Assembly (NCBI RefSeq): GCF_009017275.1
Contig: NZ_WBZC01000010.1
Location: 124,001-188,000 of the forward strand
Length of the DNA: 64,000 nt
Source of the DNA: Alkaliphilus pronyensis
Lineage (GTDB): Bacteria > Bacillota > Clostridia > Peptostreptococcales > Natronincolaceae
Reading direction: 5' to 3'
The notes beneath the pieces are model-generated. The model had not been told where the DNA came from, searched no databases, and was given only the letters and a program-made list of their open reading frames with translations. Position numbers and translations under genes: made by a program. Each line of letters begins with the position of its first letter. The first letter of the stretch is position 1. Below are positions 2,744 through 52,006 of the stretch, piece after piece.

Positions 2744-3178
2744 ATGGATAGCCTAACGGATATTTTAAAGGATAAGCTTAAGGAGAAGGGTTTTAAGCTA
2801 ACACCACAAAGAAGAGCAACCCTTGATGTGGTCTTTGGAAATAAAGGAAAACACTTAAATACAGAGGAAATATATGGATTTGTTAAAGAAAAATGTCCTG
2901 AAATTGGCTTGGCCACCGTATATAGAACTTTACAGCTTCTCGAAGAAATGGAACTTGTTTCAAAGATAAACCTAGATGATGGCTGTATTAGATACGAGTT
3001 TAATACCCATGATGATGACCATCAACATCATCATCTGATATGTCAAAGCTGTGGAAAAATAATTGAGGTTGAGTTAGATTTATTGGATCAGCTAGAGCAG
3101 GAAATTGAAAATACTTATAAATTTAAGGTTATTGATCATAAAGTTAAGTTTTTTGGAATTTGCTCAAAATGTTCCTAG
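2744..3178 (+). CDS. Fur family transcriptional regulator
   Basis: A 144-residue metalloregulator. The N-terminal winged helix includes LTPQRRATLDVV and the recognition-helix signature LATVYRTL (residues 56-63). The C-terminal dimerisation half has the Fur HDDDHQHHHLIC metal site and two CxxC zinc pairs (Cys100/103 and Cys140/143). The histidine pattern suits iron-sensing Fur better than peroxide-sensing PerR, but Fur, Zur and PerR cannot be separated with certainty by eye. It has its own promoter and terminator and so is likely monocistronic. Confidence 0.9.
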   Translation: MDSLTDILKDKLKEKGFKLTPQRRATLDVVFGNKGKHLNTEEIYGFVKEKCPEIGLATVYRTLQLLEEMELVSKINLDDGCIRYEFNTHDDDHQHHHLICQSCGKIIEVELDLLDQLEQEIENTYKFKVIDHKVKFFGICSKCS

Positions 3179-43264: not shown

Positions 43265-44463
43265 AGGTGTTAACTGTCTCAGAGGTAAATTCCTATATTA
43301 AGAGAATCATAACTGCTGACCCGATTTTATATAATATTAGGGTTAAGGGTGAAATATCTAACTATAAATTACATAGTAGTGGACATGCTTACTTTACCCT
43401 TAAGGATCAGAATAGTAGAATACGCTGTGTTATGTTTAAGAATAATACTCAGCTTTTGAAGTTTGATTTAGAAGAGGGAATGGAGGTTAATATAAAAGGA
43501 TATATATCCATTTATGAAAGAGATGGACAATATCAGTTATATGTTAATGACCTAGAGCCCTCTGGTATTGGTTCATTATACAAGGCTTTTCAACAATTAA
43601 AGGAACGCCTTGATAAAGAAGGTCTATTTGATAAGAATAAAAAGAAGCCAATTCCCTTTATATCCAAAAAAATTGCAGTTATAACCTCCCCTACAGGCTC
43701 AGTTATAAAGGATATACTATCGGTTATAGATAGACGTTTTCCGCAGGTTCATATACTTCTATACCCTGTGGCAGTACAGGGAGAAGAGTCTGCAGTTAAA
43801 ATCAGCAATGCAATTTCAATGGCAAATAGAAATGAAGCCATAGATTTGATAATATTAGCTAGAGGTGGAGGATCAATAGAAGAACTTTGGTCCTTTAACG
43901 AAGAGATAGTAGCTAGAGCCATTTATAATAGCAGTATACCAATTATCTCTGCTGTTGGACATGAAACTGATTATACTATTTCCGATTTTGTAGCAGATTT
44001 AAGGGCACCTACACCATCAGCAGCAGCTGAATTAGCCCTACCAGATTATAAGGAGGTTAAAGGATACTTATTGACATTATCCCAAAAACTAATATATCTA
44101 CTGGATTCTAAAATATATACTTTAAGGGAGAAGCTGGAAGCCTTTCAAAATAGCTATCCAGTAAAATATCCCTATCATCATATAAATAACTACCGCCAGG
44201 AGTTAGATAAAAATACAGAAAATCTAATGAAGGCAATTGAAAGTAATAAGAATAGTAAAAGAGAATACCTTTTCTATTTAGGTGAGAAATTGAATAGCCT
44301 AAGTCCATTATCCATACTAACTAGAGGTTATTCATTGGCTACCAATGAAAAGGGGCAGGTATTAAGTAGCGTGTCAATGTTTAAGCTCCAAGACTCTATA
44401 AAGCTAACAGTAAAGGATGGCACTATTAAATGTAGAGTTACGGATGTTTTAAAGGAGGATTAA
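43255..44463 (+). CDS. xseA: Exodeoxyribonuclease VII large subunit
   Basis: A 402-residue nuclease subunit. The N-terminal OB fold (VKGEISNYKLHSSGHAYFTLKD) binds single-stranded DNA; the catalytic domain has KIAVITSPTGSVIKDIL, RGGGSIEELWSFNEE and GHETDYTISDFVADLRAPTPSAAAE. With XseB it degrades single-stranded DNA to short oligonucleotides. The gene overlaps folD by 10 bases. Confidence 0.96.
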   Translation: MQIKVLTVSEVNSYIKRIITADPILYNIRVKGEISNYKLHSSGHAYFTLKDQNSRIRCVMFKNNTQLLKFDLEEGMEVNIKGYISIYERDGQYQLYVNDLEPSGIGSLYKAFQQLKERLDKEGLFDKNKKKPIPFISKKIAVITSPTGSVIKDILSVIDRRFPQVHILLYPVAVQGEESAVKISNAISMANRNEAIDLIILARGGGSIEELWSFNEEIVARAIYNSSIPIISAVGHETDYTISDFVADLRAPTPSAAAELALPDYKEVKGYLLTLSQKLIYLLDSKIYTLREKLEAFQNSYPVKYPYHHINNYRQELDKNTENLMKAIESNKNSKREYLFYLGEKLNSLSPLSILTRGYSLATNEKGQVLSSVSMFKLQDSIKLTVKDGTIKCRVTDVLKED

Positions 44464-44470
44464 TGAACTG

Positions 44471-44698
44471 ATGAAAAAAGGGTTTGAAGAGGCTATTAAA
44501 GAACTGGAATCAATAATTACTAATCTTGAAAATAGAGAATTGAGCTTAGAGGAATCCTTAAAATTATTTAAAGAGGGTGTTGATTTATATCAATATTGCA
44601 ATAATCAGTTAGATAAGGCAGAGAAAAAAATATCTATGATTATTGACGAAAATGGAATTCTAAAGGAAGTTCCCTTTCAAAAAAAGGAGGAGGAATAA
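44471..44698 (+). CDS. xseB: Exodeoxyribonuclease VII small subunit
   Basis: A 75-residue helical protein with the family signature FEEAIKELESIITNLENRELSLEESLKLFKEGV. Multiple copies assemble on XseA. It follows xseA by 7 bases and its stop overlaps the ispA start by one base. Confidence 0.95.
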   Translation: MKKGFEEAIKELESIITNLENRELSLEESLKLFKEGVDLYQYCNNQLDKAEKKISMIIDENGILKEVPFQKKEEE

Positions 44699-45582
44699 TG
44701 GAATTTCAACAGCAGTTTAAGGAGTATATTAAAAGGGTAAATAATAAATTAGAGTTTTATTTATCTATTAAAGAGGGTAAGAATAAAAGACTTTTTCAAG
44801 CAATGGGCTATAGTGTGTTTGCAGGTGGTAAAAGACTCAGACCAGTTCTTTCCCTGTCGGCCTATGATATGTTTAGTGATGATACTGAGGCTGTGCTACC
44901 TTATGCCTGTGGTATAGAAATGATTCATACCTACTCATTAATCCATGACGATTTACCTGCTATGGACGATGACGACTTTAGGAGAAATAAACCAACTAAT
45001 CATAAGGTTTTTGGAGAAGGCACTGCAATTTTAGCAGGTGATGGACTTTTAAACTATGCCTTTGAGGTTATGCTACAGGATGCACTATTACGTAATAATG
45101 GTAAATATTACAGTTCTATATATGAAATTATAAAGGCAGCTGGAGTAAACGGTATGATAGGGGGACAATTAGTTGATTTAGAAAGCGAAGGGGTATCTAT
45201 TGACGGCGAAACCTTAGACTATATTCACCTTAACAAAACCGCAGCTTTAATAATAGCCTCTTTAAAGGTTGGAGCAATAATTGGAGATGGAAATATAGCA
45301 GATATAAAAAACATGGAGATAGTGGGAAAGAATTTAGGACTAGCCTTCCAGATAAGGGACGATATACTTGATATTATAGGTAGTAAGGATAAGCTAGGTA
45401 AGGACATTGGTAGCGATGAAAATAATAATAAATCCACATATCCATCTATATATGGATTAGAGTACTCTAAGAATAAAGTAAAGGCATTAACTGGAGAAGT
45501 GAAGGAAATACTTCAAGGCTATGGAAAAAAAGCTGATTTTCTGAGAAGCTTAAGCCTGCACTTAATGGAACGTGAGTATTAA
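44698..45582 (+). CDS. ispA: Farnesyl/geranylgeranyl diphosphate synthase
   Basis: A 294-residue short-chain trans-prenyltransferase. The first Asp-rich motif is HDDLPAMDDDDFRRN, the second FQIRDDILDIIG, with GGKRLRPVL for diphosphate binding. It condenses IPP with DMAPP or geranyl-PP to supply precursors for undecaprenyl phosphate and quinones. It belongs with dxs downstream, and OLE RNA lies between the two. Confidence 0.94.
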   Translation: MEFQQQFKEYIKRVNNKLEFYLSIKEGKNKRLFQAMGYSVFAGGKRLRPVLSLSAYDMFSDDTEAVLPYACGIEMIHTYSLIHDDLPAMDDDDFRRNKPTNHKVFGEGTAILAGDGLLNYAFEVMLQDALLRNNGKYYSSIYEIIKAAGVNGMIGGQLVDLESEGVSIDGETLDYIHLNKTAALIIASLKVGAIIGDGNIADIKNMEIVGKNLGLAFQIRDDILDIIGSKDKLGKDIGSDENNNKSTYPSIYGLEYSKNKVKALTGEVKEILQGYGKKADFLRSLSLHLMEREY

Positions 45583-45600
45583 AGTAAGGAGGAAAATTCT

Positions 45601-46044
45601 TTGATTCAATCTATTGGCAACAACAGAGTATTATTAATATCGTTATTAGCTTGGTTTATCGCACAGACATTAAAGGTAATTTATACATTTGTTGTTGATA
45701 AACACTTTAATGCTTGGAGATTTGTTGGTTCAGGAGGTATGCCCAGTTCACATTCTGCCTTTGTAATGAGCTTATCTACATCAATTGGATTAATCCATGG
45801 ATGGGACTCAAGCATATTTGCCCTTTCAATTTGCTTTTCCCTAATAGTTATGTATGACGCGGCAGGAGTAAGAAGGGCAGTAGGAAAACAGGCCATAATT
45901 CTTAATAAGATTATTGAGAATCTTCATAAGAAAAAGGAGAAAAAGGAAACAGAGCAAAGATTAAAGGAGCTAATTGGGCATACACCAATAGAAGTGGTGG
46001 CAGGTGCTTTCTTAGGTGTTATTATTGCTTATTTAATGGTTTGA
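45601..46044 (+). CDS. Divergent PAP2 family membrane protein (DUF212)
   Basis: A 147-residue membrane protein of the DUF212 family. The signature RFVGSGGMPSSHSAFVMSLSTSIG resembles part of the PAP2 phosphatase motif, with AAGVRRAVGKQA and the C-terminal GHTPIEVVAGAFLGVI. A phosphatase role is plausible but unproven. The TTG start has AAGGAGGAAAA upstream. The -35 element of the downstream OLE promoter overlaps its stop codon. Confidence 0.88.
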   Translation: MIQSIGNNRVLLISLLAWFIAQTLKVIYTFVVDKHFNAWRFVGSGGMPSSHSAFVMSLSTSIGLIHGWDSSIFALSICFSLIVMYDAAGVRRAVGKQAIILNKIIENLHKKKEKKETEQRLKELIGHTPIEVVAGAFLGVIIAYLMV

Positions 46045-46069
46045 TACACCTATCTTATTATGCTATAAT
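46041..46069 (+). promoter_or_regulatory. Sigma-A type promoter for OLE RNA
   Basis: TTGATA at 46041-46046 and a perfect TATAAT at 46064-46069 are 17 bases apart. The -35 overlaps the stop codon of the DUF212 gene. The predicted start, near 46076, coincides with the beginning of the structured RNA region. Confidence 0.85.
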
Positions 46070-46075
46070 TCATCT

Positions 46076-46640
46076 ATAATATGATAATTAATAGTAGTGG
46101 TACAGTATTCTAGTCAATCGAGCTAGCTGGGAAGACGGGGCTAAAAATCCGTTGAAGGGCACATCGATGAAGTTCTTTGTTCTGGCTGCCGACGCCCAGT
46201 CGGGGGTCATTTCAGGGAGTAAGGAGATGGGGGCGATCCACAATGGCATGTGGGCGTTGACCCTCACTTCGTGGAGACCAGCTTTATCCTGTGATAAAGT
46301 GGGGGAAACCTATAGCTTTCAAAAAAATAACTATAGTGTAGCCTGCCTTGAGTGGGTTAGGTGGATAAGAAGATCAGGTTTTGGAAAAAAGGGCCCTTTG
46401 GAAAAAATCATTGCTACTTGAAACCTACTCTGCAAAAGAGGCTAATAGCTAGTTAGATTGTTGAGGAAAACTCCTAGACTGTTCTATTGAAGTATATAAA
46501 GGATTACAGTGCGGACTAAGTGGTAATCCAGTCCTGCTTTTGGTGACAAGGTAGAAGTTAGTTTAAAGGGAAACCGCTGCTATGGCGACATGCAGTACTA
46601 ATTTGGGAAATCCAACTGGACCTAAGCCGTAAAATTTACT
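46076..46640 (+). ncRNA. ole: OLE RNA (ornate, large, extremophilic RNA)
   Basis: A roughly 560-base stretch, clearly richer in G and C than its surroundings, without a credible gene. It is full of self-complementary segments, for example 46192-46198 with 46251-46257, CTTTATC with GATAAAG at 46282-46299, and GGATTAC with GTAATCC at 46501-46529. OLE RNAs are about 600 nt, occur in anaerobic and extremophilic Firmicutes, and lie in this very context next to ispA, dxs and a gene for the membrane partner OapA, which follows here. In Bacillus halodurans the OLE ribonucleoprotein is membrane-bound and needed for tolerance of cold, alcohols and magnesium. Exact ends are estimates. Identification is from size, structure, context and recall. 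Confidence 0.88.
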
Positions 46641-46672
46641 TTATATATTACCACTACGATTTTAATAAATAT

Positions 46673-46702
46673 GCTGATAGTGTAGCTATCAGCTTTCTAT
46701 TT
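46673..46702 (+). terminator. Intrinsic terminator after OLE RNA
   Basis: GCTGATAG (46673-46680) pairs perfectly with CTATCAGC (46686-46693), followed by TTTCTATTT. It would end OLE RNA before oapA, or allow partial read-through. Confidence 0.75.
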
Positions 46703-46797
46703 ATGCAGATATTTATTTTAACTTTTTATTTTTGTTTATTTTTGGTATGATGTTTATTAACAAATAATAAATGGTGAAAATATATGGAGGGATATTT

Positions 46798-47445
46798 TTG
46801 TCCAGTGACAGTAAAGATATTAAAGTAATGAAAAAAGGTAGTAAAGGGACTAATGAAATGAATGGATTATGGAAAAAATATAACTTAAAATGGGTGCTAT
46901 TAATCTCAGTATGGACATTTTTACTAACGATTGTGTTTAGTGTTTTATCAGAGGTAATATTAACAAACACATCTGTTATATTTGCATTTCTAATTCTGTT
47001 AATCATAATCTTTATTGGTGTTTTTAGTGATATGGTTGGTATAGCAGTGGCTGCCTCAGATGCAAAGCCCTTTCATGCAATGGCTGCCGACAAGGTAAAC
47101 GGGTCTAAAATAGCAATTAAGCTGGTTAAAAATGCAAGTGTAGTATCAAGCTTTTGCAACGATGTAATTGGTGACATTTGCGGTATTGTAAGTGGTGTTG
47201 CAGGTGCCAGCATTGTTATTCAGCTACCCTTTAATGATGCCTTTACAAAAGCTATTATAACAATTATACTGACGGGATTTGTGGCCTCCTTAACTGTAGG
47301 AGGCAAAGCAGTAGGGAAAACCATTGCTATAAAGCAGTGGCAAATAATAGTTTTTCAAGTGGCAAAACTGCTATTCATAATATATGATAAATTAGGAATT
47401 GATGTTTTACCTGAAGCAAACGGAAAAAATAAGAAAGAGAGATGA
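46798..47445 (+). CDS. oapA: OLE-associated membrane protein OapA
   Basis: A 215-residue membrane protein with four to five hydrophobic helices (about residues 30-50, 58-80, 130-155 and 165-185). The central FSDMVGIAVAASDAKPFHAMAADKV, with two conserved acidic residues, is the stretch I associate with OapA; mutation of a paired-Asp motif in B. halodurans OapA gives a dominant-negative protein. OapA binds OLE RNA and holds it at the membrane. TTG 46798 is preferred to ATG 46771 because GGAGGG (46786-46791) is spaced for it. The gene directly follows OLE RNA. Confidence 0.87.
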   Translation: MSSDSKDIKVMKKGSKGTNEMNGLWKKYNLKWVLLISVWTFLLTIVFSVLSEVILTNTSVIFAFLILLIIIFIGVFSDMVGIAVAASDAKPFHAMAADKVNGSKIAIKLVKNASVVSSFCNDVIGDICGIVSGVAGASIVIQLPFNDAFTKAIITIILTGFVASLTVGGKAVGKTIAIKQWQIIVFQVAKLLFIIYDKLGIDVLPEANGKNKKER

Positions 47446-47449
47446 TATA

Positions 47450-49348
47450 GTGTATACGTATCTATCTAAAATTAGTAGTCCAGAAGACTTAAAACAGCTG
47501 AAGGAAAATGAAATAGAATTATTAGCACAGGAAATAAGGTGCTTTTTAATAGATTCAGTTTCAAAAACTGGAGGTCATCTTGCTTCAAATCTAGGGGTTG
47601 TAGAGTTAACTCTAGCCCTACATATGATGTTTGATAGTCCTAAGGATAAGCTTATTTGGGATGTAGGCCATCAAAGCTATATTCATAAAATTATATGTGG
47701 GAGAAAAGAGGCTTTCGCATCCCTAAGACAGTATAAAGGCTTAAGTGGTTTTCCAAAAAGAGTTGAAAGCCCCCATGATCATTTTGAAACTGGTCATAGT
47801 AGCACATCAATATCAGCCGCATTAGGAATGGCCTTTGCCAGAGACCTAAAGAAGGAGAGCTTTTCGATAGTAGCAGTAATAGGTGATGGTGCCTTAACAG
47901 GGGGCATGGCCTTTGAAGCATTAAATCATGCTGGTCAAAGCAAGAAAAATATTACCGTAGTTTTAAATGATAATGAGATGTCTATATCCCATAATGTGGG
48001 CGGATTATCTGATTATTTAAATAGAATTAGAACTACTCCAATATATTCAAAGGTTAAAGGAGATATGGAGCATATTCTAAGTAATATACCTGCCATTGGC
48101 AAAAGTGTAGTAAAAACTGCTGAAAAGGCAAAGGATTGCATTAAATATTTCTTTGTCCCGGGAGTATTGTTTGAGGAGCTTGGCTTTACCTATATTGGAC
48201 CTATAGATGGACATAATTTTCAAGCCATGTGTAAAGCATTAAAGCAATGCAAAAACATTAGTGGGCCAGTGCTATTACATGTATTAACTAAAAAGGGCAA
48301 AGGCTATAAGCCGGCAGAAACCTTTCCCGATGAATACCACGGTGTTAGTCCCTTTAAGGTGGACTCAGGAAAACCAGTAGCTAAAGCCTCAAAGATTAGT
48401 TTTTCAGATGTTGCAGGAGCTGCTTTAGTAGAAAAAGCAGAAGAAAACCCCAAAATAGTAGCTATAACTGCTGCAATGCCTTCTGGAACTGGGTTATCCA
48501 CTTTTGCAGAAAAATTTCCTGACAGATTTTTTGATGTTGGTATTGCAGAACAACATGCAGTAACATTGGCGGCAGGCTTTGCAGCAGAAGGATATAAGCC
48601 CTTTTTTCCAGTGTATTCTACTTTTCTACAAAGAGGCTTTGATCAAGTAATACATGATGTTTGTATTCAAAGCTTACCTGTTACATTACTACTAGACAGA
48701 GCTGGGGTAGTGGGGAATGATGGAGAAACCCATCATGGGGTATTTGATATATCCTTTTTATCCTGTATACCTAACCTCACCTTTATGGCGCCAAAAGATG
48801 GTAATGAGCTTAAGCAAATGATAGATTATGCTGTCAATAGTAATGGACCAGTTGCTATAAGATACCCTAGGGGTAATACAGATGTAATAGAGACTGACAA
48901 CTCTAAGGAAATAGCTACAGGTAGAGGTGAGATAGTCTATGAAGCAGGTAAAGACGCCTTAATTATTGCATTAGGACCCATGTGCCAAAGGGCATTAGAG
49001 GCATGCAAGCAATTGGAGGAAAGGGGCATATTTTGTACCATACTAAATCCACGATTTATTAAGCCGATGGATGAGTTTTTGATTTTACAATATGTAAGTA
49101 AATGCAAAAGGGTTTATACTATTGAAGACCATGTGAAGCATGGAGGCTTTGGTAGTCAGGTGGTAAACCTATTAAATGACCATAATATTATGAAGGAAGT
49201 TACAATATTAGCATATCCCGATGTTTTTATTGAGCATGGAGACATAAATACTATTATGGAGGTTTATGGCTTAAGTAGTCAACAACTATTTAATATAATT
49301 GATAAGGACTTTGCAGGAAAAAAGTCAAGAATTGCAATGACAAGATAA
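47450..49348 (+). CDS. dxs: 1-deoxy-D-xylulose-5-phosphate synthase
   Basis: A 632-residue thiamine-diphosphate enzyme, first step of the MEP isoprenoid pathway, from pyruvate and glyceraldehyde 3-phosphate. Conserved are KTGGHLASNLGVVELTLALH, the ThDP motif GDGALTGGMAFEALNHAG...NDNEMSIS, GPIDGHN, FFDVGIAEQHAVTLAAG and DRAGVVGNDGETHHG. GTG 47450 is preferred to the frame-open ATG at 47399, which would overlap oapA by 47 bases; from 47450 the N-terminus aligns with known Dxs proteins. Confidence 0.95.
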   Translation: MYTYLSKISSPEDLKQLKENEIELLAQEIRCFLIDSVSKTGGHLASNLGVVELTLALHMMFDSPKDKLIWDVGHQSYIHKIICGRKEAFASLRQYKGLSGFPKRVESPHDHFETGHSSTSISAALGMAFARDLKKESFSIVAVIGDGALTGGMAFEALNHAGQSKKNITVVLNDNEMSISHNVGGLSDYLNRIRTTPIYSKVKGDMEHILSNIPAIGKSVVKTAEKAKDCIKYFFVPGVLFEELGFTYIGPIDGHNFQAMCKALKQCKNISGPVLLHVLTKKGKGYKPAETFPDEYHGVSPFKVDSGKPVAKASKISFSDVAGAALVEKAEENPKIVAITAAMPSGTGLSTFAEKFPDRFFDVGIAEQHAVTLAAGFAAEGYKPFFPVYSTFLQRGFDQVIHDVCIQSLPVTLLLDRAGVVGNDGETHHGVFDISFLSCIPNLTFMAPKDGNELKQMIDYAVNSNGPVAIRYPRGNTDVIETDNSKEIATGRGEIVYEAGKDALIIALGPMCQRALEACKQLEERGIFCTILNPRFIKPMDEFLILQYVSKCKRVYTIEDHVKHGGFGSQVVNLLNDHNIMKEVTILAYPDVFIEHGDINTIMEVYGLSSQQLFNIIDKDFAGKKSRIAMTR

Positions 49349-49363
49349 ATATGGGAGTTATAT

Positions 49364-50173
49364 ATGAGTGAAAAAATGCGATTAGATCAGTTTTTGTTTC
49401 AAGAAGGATATTTTGATAGTAGAGAAAAGGCTAGAAGATCAATTATGGCGGGGGTAGTATTTGTTGATAATCAAAAAATAGACAAGCCTGGTACAAAAAT
49501 CTCTATAGCTTCAAATATCTATATAAAAGAAAATCCTATACCCTATGTCAGTAGAGGTGGATTAAAGCTTGAAAAGGCTTTAAAAGAGTTCAACATCACT
49601 TTAAATGATAATGTATGTATTGATATTGGAGCTTCAACAGGTGGCTTTACAGATTGCATGCTAAAAAACGGTGCAATAAAAGTGTTTTCTATAGATGTTG
49701 GCTATGGGCAATTAGATTGGAGGCTACGGCAAGATCCTAGAGTTACTTGCATGGAGAGAACCAATATAAGATATGTAGAAGCCTCAATGCTTGATGGAAT
49801 AAAGCCAGATTTTGCTTCTATAGATGTATCCTTTATTTCATTAAAGCTAGTATTACCCGTAGTAAAAAATCTATTGAAAGAAAATGCTGAAATTGTTGCC
49901 TTAATAAAACCACAATTTGAGGCAGGTAAAGAAAAGGTCGGTAAAAAAGGTGTTGTAAGAGATATTGAGGTTCATAAAGAGGTGGTAAAAAATATTGTTG
50001 ATTTTACACAAGACATAGGCCTATCAGTTTTAGGACTTTCCTTTTCCCCAATAAAGGGCCCAGAAGGTAATATTGAATATCTACTATACATAAAAAACAC
50101 CTATAATATAGATTTATGCTTTTCAAAGGATAAGATTAATAGCATTATTGAAAAATCCCATAGGGATTTGTAA
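49364..50173 (+). CDS. TlyA family rRNA 2'-O-methyltransferase (hemolysin-type)
   Basis: A 269-residue protein with an N-terminal S4 RNA-binding domain (MRLDQFLFQEGYFDSREKAR) and a C-terminal FtsJ-like SAM methyltransferase (DIGASTGGFTDCML, YGQLDWRLRQDPRV, LIKPQFEAGKE). Mycobacterial TlyA makes 2'-O-methylcytidines in 16S and 23S rRNA; the Firmicutes homologue YqxC is less studied. It lies 15 bases after dxs, the usual order in this class. Confidence 0.93.
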   Translation: MSEKMRLDQFLFQEGYFDSREKARRSIMAGVVFVDNQKIDKPGTKISIASNIYIKENPIPYVSRGGLKLEKALKEFNITLNDNVCIDIGASTGGFTDCMLKNGAIKVFSIDVGYGQLDWRLRQDPRVTCMERTNIRYVEASMLDGIKPDFASIDVSFISLKLVLPVVKNLLKENAEIVALIKPQFEAGKEKVGKKGVVRDIEVHKEVVKNIVDFTQDIGLSVLGLSFSPIKGPEGNIEYLLYIKNTYNIDLCFSKDKINSIIEKSHRDL

Positions 50174-51556: not shown

Positions 51557-52006
51557 ATGAAGTACACAAGACACGCTAAAATCTTAGAAATAATTGACAA
51601 TAAGGAAATAGAAACTCAAGAAGAATTATCAGAAGAATTAAGAAAAATAGGATTAAATGTTACTCAAGCAACTGTTTCAAGAGATATTAAGGAGTTAAGA
51701 TTAATTAAGGTCTTATCTAAAACAGGAAAATATAAGTATGCTACTTTAAAGAGTCAAGACTCTGTTTTATCCGATAGACTCATTAGATTATTTAAAGATT
51801 CAATACTTTCAATAGAACATTCTGGGAACTTACTTGTATTGAAAACGATTCCAGCTGCGGCACAGGCAGCCGCATCTGCTATTGATGCTGCAGGCTTCGA
51901 AGGCGTTGTAGGAACAGTGGCTGGAGATGATACAATCTTTGTTTTAATTAGAGAGAATTCTAATATGGAAGAGGTAAAGGACAAGTTTAGAAAGCTTATG
52001 AAGTGA
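51557..52006 (+). CDS. argR: Arginine repressor ArgR
   Basis: A 149-residue regulator with an N-terminal winged helix (RHAKILEIIDNKEIETQEELSEELRK, TQATVSRDIKELRLIKV) and the C-terminal hexamerisation and arginine-binding domain (LVLKTIPAAAQAAASAIDAAG, GTVAGDDTIFVLIR). It represses arginine synthesis and controls catabolism. GGGAGGG precedes the ATG. Its stop overlaps an in-frame GTG of the recN frame, and recN follows after 11 bases. Confidence 0.95.
   Translation: MKYTRHAKILEIIDNKEIETQEELSEELRKIGLNVTQATVSRDIKELRLIKVLSKTGKYKYATLKSQDSVLSDRLIRLFKDSILSIEHSGNLLVLKTIPAAAQAAASAIDAAGFEGVVGTVAGDDTIFVLIRENSNMEEVKDKFRKLMK

Follow-up and report, generated by a model that had tools for sequence, protein, structure and literature searches.

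The 64,000-nucleotide stretch of Alkaliphilus pronyensis DNA analyzed here (contig NZ_WBZC01000010.1, positions 124,001 to 188,000; hereafter the window, whose own numbering is used throughout) carries what is, to near certainty, an authentic ole-oapA locus from a member of the Alkaliphilus group. Judged by sequence, a complete OLE RNA gene is adjoined by a complete oapA gene, and homologues of OapB, OapC and bS21 are encoded elsewhere in the genome. In published work, OLE RNA is described as forming a dimer to which OapA binds at the membrane, together with OapB, OapC and bS21, and as needed for stress adaptation in Halalkalibacterium halodurans (PMC12265935, PMC11332333, PMC9723947, PMC12286853, PMC12054373, PMC10898510). 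We are highly confident that the region as a whole is best explained as a genuine ole-oapA locus with its partners encoded, presumably with the published ribonucleoprotein (RNP) role and, at lower confidence, with a transcription unit of its own for ole.

A preliminary description of this DNA, made from the sequence alone, had proposed OLE RNA in a GC-richer, gene-free stretch followed by a membrane protein resembling OapA. Using cmscan, we found that the Rfam covariance model RF01071 matches positions 46081-46670 of the forward strand end to end (model positions 1-616), at 486.6 bits against a gathering cut-off of 50 (E = 9.4e-141), which bears out the identification. This is the sole Rfam match at the gathering threshold in the 64 kb window and the sole OLE match in the 3.06 Mb genome. 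The GC content of 46000-46499 is 0.414, the highest of 23 intervals covering 44000-49999 (the rest lie between 0.302 and 0.404), in agreement with what had been described. Both a model hit for the RNA and homology of the adjoining protein to OapA are present.

The gene order is ispA, a DUF212 gene, ole, oapA, dxs. On the forward strand, ispA (farnesyl diphosphate synthase; NCBIfam NF045485, E = 1.9e-103) spans 44698-45582 and the DUF212, or divergent PAP2, gene (Pfam PF02681, E = 1.2e-51) spans 45601-46044, its stop codon being overlapped by the promoter-like site of ole discussed below. The dxs frame (TIGR00204, E = 2e-252) runs over 47399-49348 of the same strand when taken from its first start codon; the real start is probably slightly further in. 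The RNA had been placed between ispA and dxs, and dxs does follow oapA, but the immediate upstream neighbor is the DUF212 gene, with ispA one gene beyond. A few genes downstream of ole and oapA lies argR (51557-52006), named by eye from its sequence; ArgR is reported, in the text of PMC10898510, as a protein recovered in an OLE pull-down.

Within ole there is one forward-strand open reading frame, of 89 amino acids with a TTG start (46152-46421). The open frame is present in the window, as it would be if the stretch encoded a small protein, but we regard that reading as vanishingly improbable: the 89-residue product has no Pfam or NCBIfam family match, stops break the frame in 17 of 17 aligned relatives, and the OLE covariance model matches over the whole length. 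The stretch is gene-free in the sense of lacking conserved genes, and with the frame broken in every aligned relative there is no sign that it is translated.

Several structural features of OLE can be recognized in the RNA. The strands GUAGUGGUA (46094-46102) and UACCACUAC (46649-46657), both read on the forward strand, are complementary and would form the closing helix, presumably P1. The later OLE helices are present along the model, with a shortened P7 region: in the covariance-model alignment, most of a run of about 28 model positions near 204-231 is deleted. Published work separates a full-length type, which has a long P7-P9 and a P13 carrying the OapB site, from variants 1 and 2. Helix names are our own assignment, and variant boundaries were taken from published text only. 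The RNA also carries the dimer-contact loop strings CTAAAAATC, GACGCCCAGT and AATGGCATG and the palindrome GGGCCC, which we assign to L4, L5, L6 and L9, respectively, following the descriptions given in the text of PMC12286853 and PMC12265935. Of 79 OLE loci, the window among them, 74, 35, 44 and 28 have the exact strings for L4, L5, L6 and L9, respectively, so only the L4 string comes close to being universal as an exact match. By analogy with other species, OLE RNA here would fold as a dimer and bind an OapA dimer at the membrane, and the complex would aid adaptation to cold, alcohol, Mg2+ and carbon stress. Typical features of OLE RNA are an abundant transcript of about 600 nt and localization at the membrane. 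A soda-lake metatranscriptome is described as having about 1% of its ncRNA reads from OLE RNA (PMC6704655).

The next gene after ole belongs to the OapA family, as had been proposed, but the open reading frame 46771-47445 more probably starts at the TTG at 46798 than at the ATG at 46771. This choice gives an oapA gene at 46798-47445 (forward strand) with a product of 215 amino acids, with the putative ribosome-binding site GGAGGG at 46786-46791. The segment DMVGIAVAASDAKPFHAMA, previously singled out as OapA-like, is present, but the strictly invariant stretch of OapA is instead FCNDVIGD, further on. FCNDVIGD and GGK are invariant in 40 of 40 aligned sequences (alignment A2, with L036 left out), and DVIGD corresponds to the DxxxD motif, which the text of PMC11332333 calls distinctive of OapA. 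The window protein is 40-77% identical to its 39 aligned relatives, and the top-ranked of the relatives kept is that of Alkaliphilus peptidifermentans (77%); two Halalkalibacter loci in the alignment (L031 and L037) stand at 44-45%. An oapA open reading frame was found in 78 of 79 loci (L036 gave no start) and the DxxxD pattern in 72 of these 78, with L050 and L066, where 6-residue frames were picked by mistake, counted as misses.

Sequence searches with the window OapA returned no Pfam, NCBIfam or PDB match. An AlphaFold2 model built from the 40-row alignment has a mean pLDDT of 84.4 and predicts four long helices, at residues 21-56, 60-86, 113-142 and 148-179. The best PDB fold match to this model is the CNNM transmembrane domain (7m1t, Z = 11.9 over 137 residues at 3.0 Å), followed by 7m1u (Z = 11.7), 7cfg (Z = 10.7) and 7cff (Z = 10.6). 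These four are all of the CNNM family and set apart from the fifth row (Z = 8.7), although for helical bundles a Z below about 13 may mean only a common arrangement, and the 11.9-10.6 seen here lies below that level. Foldseek also placed CNNM entries first with a probability of 1.00, at E-values of 0.016 or worse (none below 0.001). The predicted fold of OapA, with four transmembrane helices, is thus CNNM-like, which agrees with what the text of PMC11332333 says of the H. halodurans protein; the same text describes OapA as lacking the conserved proline of CNNM domains.

Candidates for the other RNP partners were found in the genome. The OapB candidate was located through the gene order map-oapB-infA, which we take to be that of its usual setting, and then compared with the PDB. 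It lies on contig C10 between map and infA (both named by eye) and matches "OLE-associated protein B" (7k9b, E = 4.5e-16). The KOW Pfam model was rejected as a means of finding OapB, its two hits being a 103-residue product of a ribosomal-protein operon (by eye, rplX) and presumed nusG. The OapC candidate is an L7Ae-like protein encoded after what appears to be the C-terminal part of rpoC, and it matches YbxF (E = 9.4e-18), the protein equated with OapC in the text of PMC9723947; the genome has a second L7Ae-type gene. A bS21 homologue is encoded as well. On OLE RNA, OapC is known to bind a k-turn, and bS21 a site that mimics the anti-Shine-Dalgarno sequence. The genome has one separate CNNM protein (open frame of 415 amino acids), in line with the statement in the text of PMC11332333 that OLE species carry "no more than one" MpfA.

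The linkage of ole and oapA is almost without exception among relatives. A scan of species genomes confirmed at least 544 OapA relatives, and the loci studied are the best 80 of these. OLE lies upstream of oapA in 79 of the 80, which establishes the window protein as a member of an ole-linked family and upholds its homology to OapA; in the one exception (L011) the match lies only 2 bases from where the contig breaks off. Among 60 related genomes, 40 contain OLE, with 39 scoring over the cut-off; one of them is G001, which is of the same genus as the window's genome. A sample of 391 genomes of the class has OLE in 151, so the OLE family is common there and the window holds a member of a known family. 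The loci in these and the following counts are not independent, several coming from the same genera, and the counts are raw. Apparent OLE loss in two related genomes (G035, OLE absent; G046, partial) was discounted, both being cut by contig edges.

Three loci in this survey depart from the usual arrangement. In an Anaerosolibacter metagenome-assembled genome (L014, around 2430-2433), 2 bases stand where L022 has 126, so that the ole promoter and the 5' part of OLE are missing; the flanks of the two loci align at 81% and 94%, and the gap is either a real deletion or an assembly error. A record filed as "Bacteriophage sp." (MT835614.1; L082) begins with 9.4 kb that look like a piece of bacterial chromosome, with xseA-xseB, an oapA-like gene, tlyA, nadK, argR and recN recognized by eye. 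Its OapA-like protein (818-1432) keeps DVIGD and lacks PFHAMA, and no OLE was found in those first 9.4 kb. Finally, in a genome of the same family (G014; contig C51, around 2800-3000, reverse strand; L101), DUF212 and dxs remain with no oapA between them, and OLE is reduced to a short remnant of 22 bits, below the cut-off, while the promoter-like sequence, the OLE 5' end and a hairpin GCTGATAGC...GCTGTCAGC are still recognizable. By its sequence this is a decayed ole locus, and it fits a remark in the text of PMC11332333 about defective ole genes where OapA is missing.

Directly upstream of ole is a promoter-like site, TTGATA-17 nt-TATAAT (46041-46069, forward strand), with an extended -10 element (TATGCTATAAT) and 11 of 12 consensus bases. 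It is the best site of 45500-47500. That region holds 9 promoter-like sites, against 7.8 ± 2.8 by chance, and since there is no excess the case for an ole promoter rests on the relatives. Two of the 79 loci, L019 and L026, were dropped because a contig end lies too near. In 57 of the other 77, the 80 nt surrounding the 5' end of OLE include a site that scores 10 or more, compared with 3 of 296 control windows further upstream; the same score is reached in 4.4% of first-order shuffles. Measured from the 5' end of OLE, the site in these 77 loci mostly keeps to one position, give or take about 10 nt, and most of the 18 rows of alignment A1 have the extended -10 element TATGnTATAAT or something near it. 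We infer that the site is active.

Just past the 3' end of OLE, outside the Rfam model, lies a terminator-type hairpin (46673-46693, forward strand), GCTGATAG-TGTAG-CTATCAGC, followed by the T-rich tail TTTCTATTTA. It has 9 pairs, 4 of them G-C, and the fold of 46657-46706 has a computed energy of -13.8 kcal/mol (z = -3.5). The U tract is interrupted, so termination may be weak. Terminator-like sites are in slight excess in 45500-47500 (3 against 1.2 ± 1.3). Of 79 loci, 30 have a terminator-type hairpin in the interval from OLE to oapA and 49 have none by the criteria used; among control segments, such hairpins turned up in 35 of 3950 shuffled ones and 4 of 294 taken from upstream.

The specific stem, allowing up to 3 mismatches in 16, is found at the OLE 3' end in 28 of the 79 loci, one of them the window. 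These 28 include no record titled as a species of Bacilli (L028 is titled only Bacillota), and loci that are so titled have at least 5 mismatches to the stem. In its exact form the stem pattern has one site in its own genome, at 46673-46693, and occurs in 22 of the 60 relatives, next to OLE in 21 of these. In the exception (G043; C33:67851-67874, L118), GCTGATAG...CTATCAGC has on one side a gene identified by eye as probably encoding glutamate decarboxylase and on the other unrelated genes, and that genome has no OLE match. In the class sample the exact stem was found in 16 of 391 genomes, next to OLE in 10 and elsewhere in 6, and among those six only G200 has an OLE match, on another contig. 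The element is therefore lineage-restricted, and the palindrome is not unique to OLE. The reading as a genome-wide repeated terminator was rejected, given the single site in its own genome and the position next to OLE in 21 of 22 relatives, although 6 of the 16 class-sample hits lie elsewhere. In papers on OLE RNA, judged from titles, abstract openings and selected passages, we met no description of a conserved 3' hairpin.

From this anatomy, we think it reasonably likely that ole is a transcription unit of its own. RNA polymerase would start about 7 nt after the TATAAT of the 46041-46069 site, and transcription would yield OLE and mostly stop at the 46673-46693 hairpin, a stop that would fix the 3' end of the RNA. 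Expression of oapA would depend on read-through, to which a weak promoter belonging to oapA itself may add in this genus, and a leaky terminator would provide abundant RNA and little of the membrane protein OapA from one locus. The gap holds a possible extended -10 element of such a separate oapA promoter, TGGTATGAT (46743-46751, forward strand), and the same motif is in the gap of the closest relative (L002). This motif in the window and L002, and TGCTATAAT in L028, each in a longer gap, may represent an extra oapA promoter. The median distance from OLE to oapA is 37 nt in loci without a hairpin and 72 nt in loci with one.

The same arrangement could be read as part of a long isoprenoid-operon transcript from which RNases cut out OLE; the 3' hairpin would then be a stem for processing or stability, and the resemblance to a promoter would be incidental. 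The genes upstream of ole share its orientation and are separated by small gaps, promoter-like sites show no overall excess in the region, and the H. halodurans cluster is reported to be transcribed as one polycistronic RNA (PMC12265935), so the model of an autonomous unit cannot be general. In 9 of 28 hairpin loci, moreover, oapA begins only 19-43 nt past the hairpin by the start choice used (which is clearly wrong for L004 and L008); this leaves little room for a promoter, some transcripts must pass, and oapA there depends at least partly on read-through. Against excision from an operon transcript stand the position of the promoter-like site, mostly within about 10 nt of a fixed place in the 77 loci and far above the control windows, and the decayed locus of G014, where the promoter-like sequence and the hairpin are recognizable despite the loss of most of OLE and the adjacent oapA. 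We consider it rather unlikely for the window, and a separate ole unit remains our preferred reading.

We also asked whether the hairpin sequence is kept beyond what pairing and shared ancestry would give. In alignment A3 (28 hairpins), 97.9% of pair cells are standard and 4 of 10 pairs have changed on both sides (0-2 in slid controls), while 3 pairs never vary; the pairing is thus conserved. The arms are kept while the loops that join them differ in length and sequence. For comparison, we took the hairpins that follow tmRNA and RNase P genes within one group of relatives, finding hairpins in 29 of 38 OLE, 25 of 27 tmRNA and 25 of 29 RNase P loci. Arms were sought from 15 bases before to 75 bases after the end of the OLE match, and 0-90 bases after the gene end for tmRNA and RNase P. 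The controls were the 30 best-scoring loci each, of which 27 (tmRNA) and 29 (RNase P) were used; tmRNA of G014, G058 and G041 and RNase P of G014 were left out, the gene end not having been located. The RNase P hits are all below the Rfam cut-off, most with an RNase P-like 3' end, and the genome subsets for the three RNAs overlap without being identical. The mean similarity of 5' arms between families is 0.78 for OLE, 0.47 for tmRNA and 0.49 for RNase P; the corresponding within-family values are 0.87, 0.57 and 0.71. The most frequent 7-mer of the arms is shared by 21 of 38 OLE loci from four families, compared with 3 of 27 tmRNA loci and 4 of 29 RNase P loci, each from one family.

It would seem, then, that in part of the Clostridia the hairpin sequence is conserved more than pairing alone requires. 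We give an even chance to the hairpin being an ordinary intrinsic terminator whose sequence was conserved through shared ancestry only: it resembles a terminator, its range covers only part of the Clostridia (in exact form at the OLE 3' end in 10 of 151 OLE genomes of the class sample), 9 of 38 OLE genes among the relatives have no hairpin by the criteria used, and 6 of 391 genomes have the palindrome at a site not next to OLE. Ancestry alone fits less well with the tmRNA and RNase P stems, which are not kept between families to the extent that OLE stems are and lack a comparably widespread 7-mer, or with a loop that varies beside arms that stay. A more speculative reading, which we hold to be unlikely, is that in one lineage of Clostridia OLE carries an extra 3' helix, GCUGAUAG...CUAUCAGC, kept because it is recognized by a protein of the OLE RNP, by OapA or by another RNA, and doubling as a partial terminator that sets the ratio of OLE to OapA. 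If this were true, a single sequence-specific element would tie together the synthesis of OLE, the 3' end of the RNA and the dosage of its partner.

Two regulatory pairings of the hairpin were considered and rejected as general mechanisms. An antiterminator inside OLE would require a partner at a shared place, and the partners among the 27 arm-containing OLE loci (of 38) are scattered: the 3' arm has one in OLE in 5 of 27 (8 of 9 pairs) and the 5' arm in 3 of 27 (8 or 9 of 9). The segment GCTAATAGC, at 46441-46449 in the window, could pair with the hairpin 3' arm at 8 of 9 positions. Among the 27 loci compared, it is at a shared place only in the window's genome (G000) and G001, at offsets 360 and 366, and antiterminator pairing is possible in these two. 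Pairing of the hairpin with the oapA leader likewise failed as a general mechanism, since among 45 distinct hairpins only those of two Anaeromonas loci have a long downstream partner for the 3' arm. In these two (L018, 2854-2914; L033, 2861-2920) a 20-nt segment pairs with the 3' arm and the U tract, perfectly in the first and at 19 of 20 positions in the second. The segment ends shortly before the oapA ribosome-binding site and looks like one half of a terminator/antiterminator pair.

OLE is among the largest structured bacterial RNAs without a known biochemical function, and the sources cited describe genetic work in a single bacillus, H. halodurans. The locus of the Alkaliphilus type has those of the known partner genes that we looked for, and it seems to form a transcription unit complete in itself. 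If so, the native RNA ends could be predicted from the DNA, which would aid in vitro structure work on the 5'/3' domain, and the sequence-kept 3' hairpin is a well-defined target for mutation or for bait experiments. OLE RNA was already known and no new RNA class is proposed; what seems to be added here is the layout of promoter-like site and 3' hairpin, and this layout merits a note to OLE specialists.

Compared with the OLE RNAs of H. halodurans and Clostridium acetobutylicum, the window RNA shares the match to the whole model, the dimer-contact sequences, the place directly upstream of oapA, the isoprenoid-gene neighborhood and a nearby argR. It differs in its short P7, with part of the model deleted, in the promoter-like site with an extended -10 element belonging to ole itself, and in the terminator-type hairpin of conserved sequence past its 3' end, which was not found in loci titled as Bacilli. 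The window protein shares with known OapA its length of 215 amino acids, the invariant FCNDVIGD, the predicted CNNM-like fold and the place beside ole, and nothing notable sets it apart. With the CNNM, CorB and MpfA Mg2+ transporters it has the predicted transmembrane fold in common; unlike them, it has no CBS, CorC or Pfam CNNM match and carries DxxxD. The 3' hairpin resembles the intrinsic terminators of tmRNA and RNase P in relatives in being a stem-loop with a U-rich tail directly after a structured RNA, but whereas their stem sequences differ between families, that of OLE is kept.
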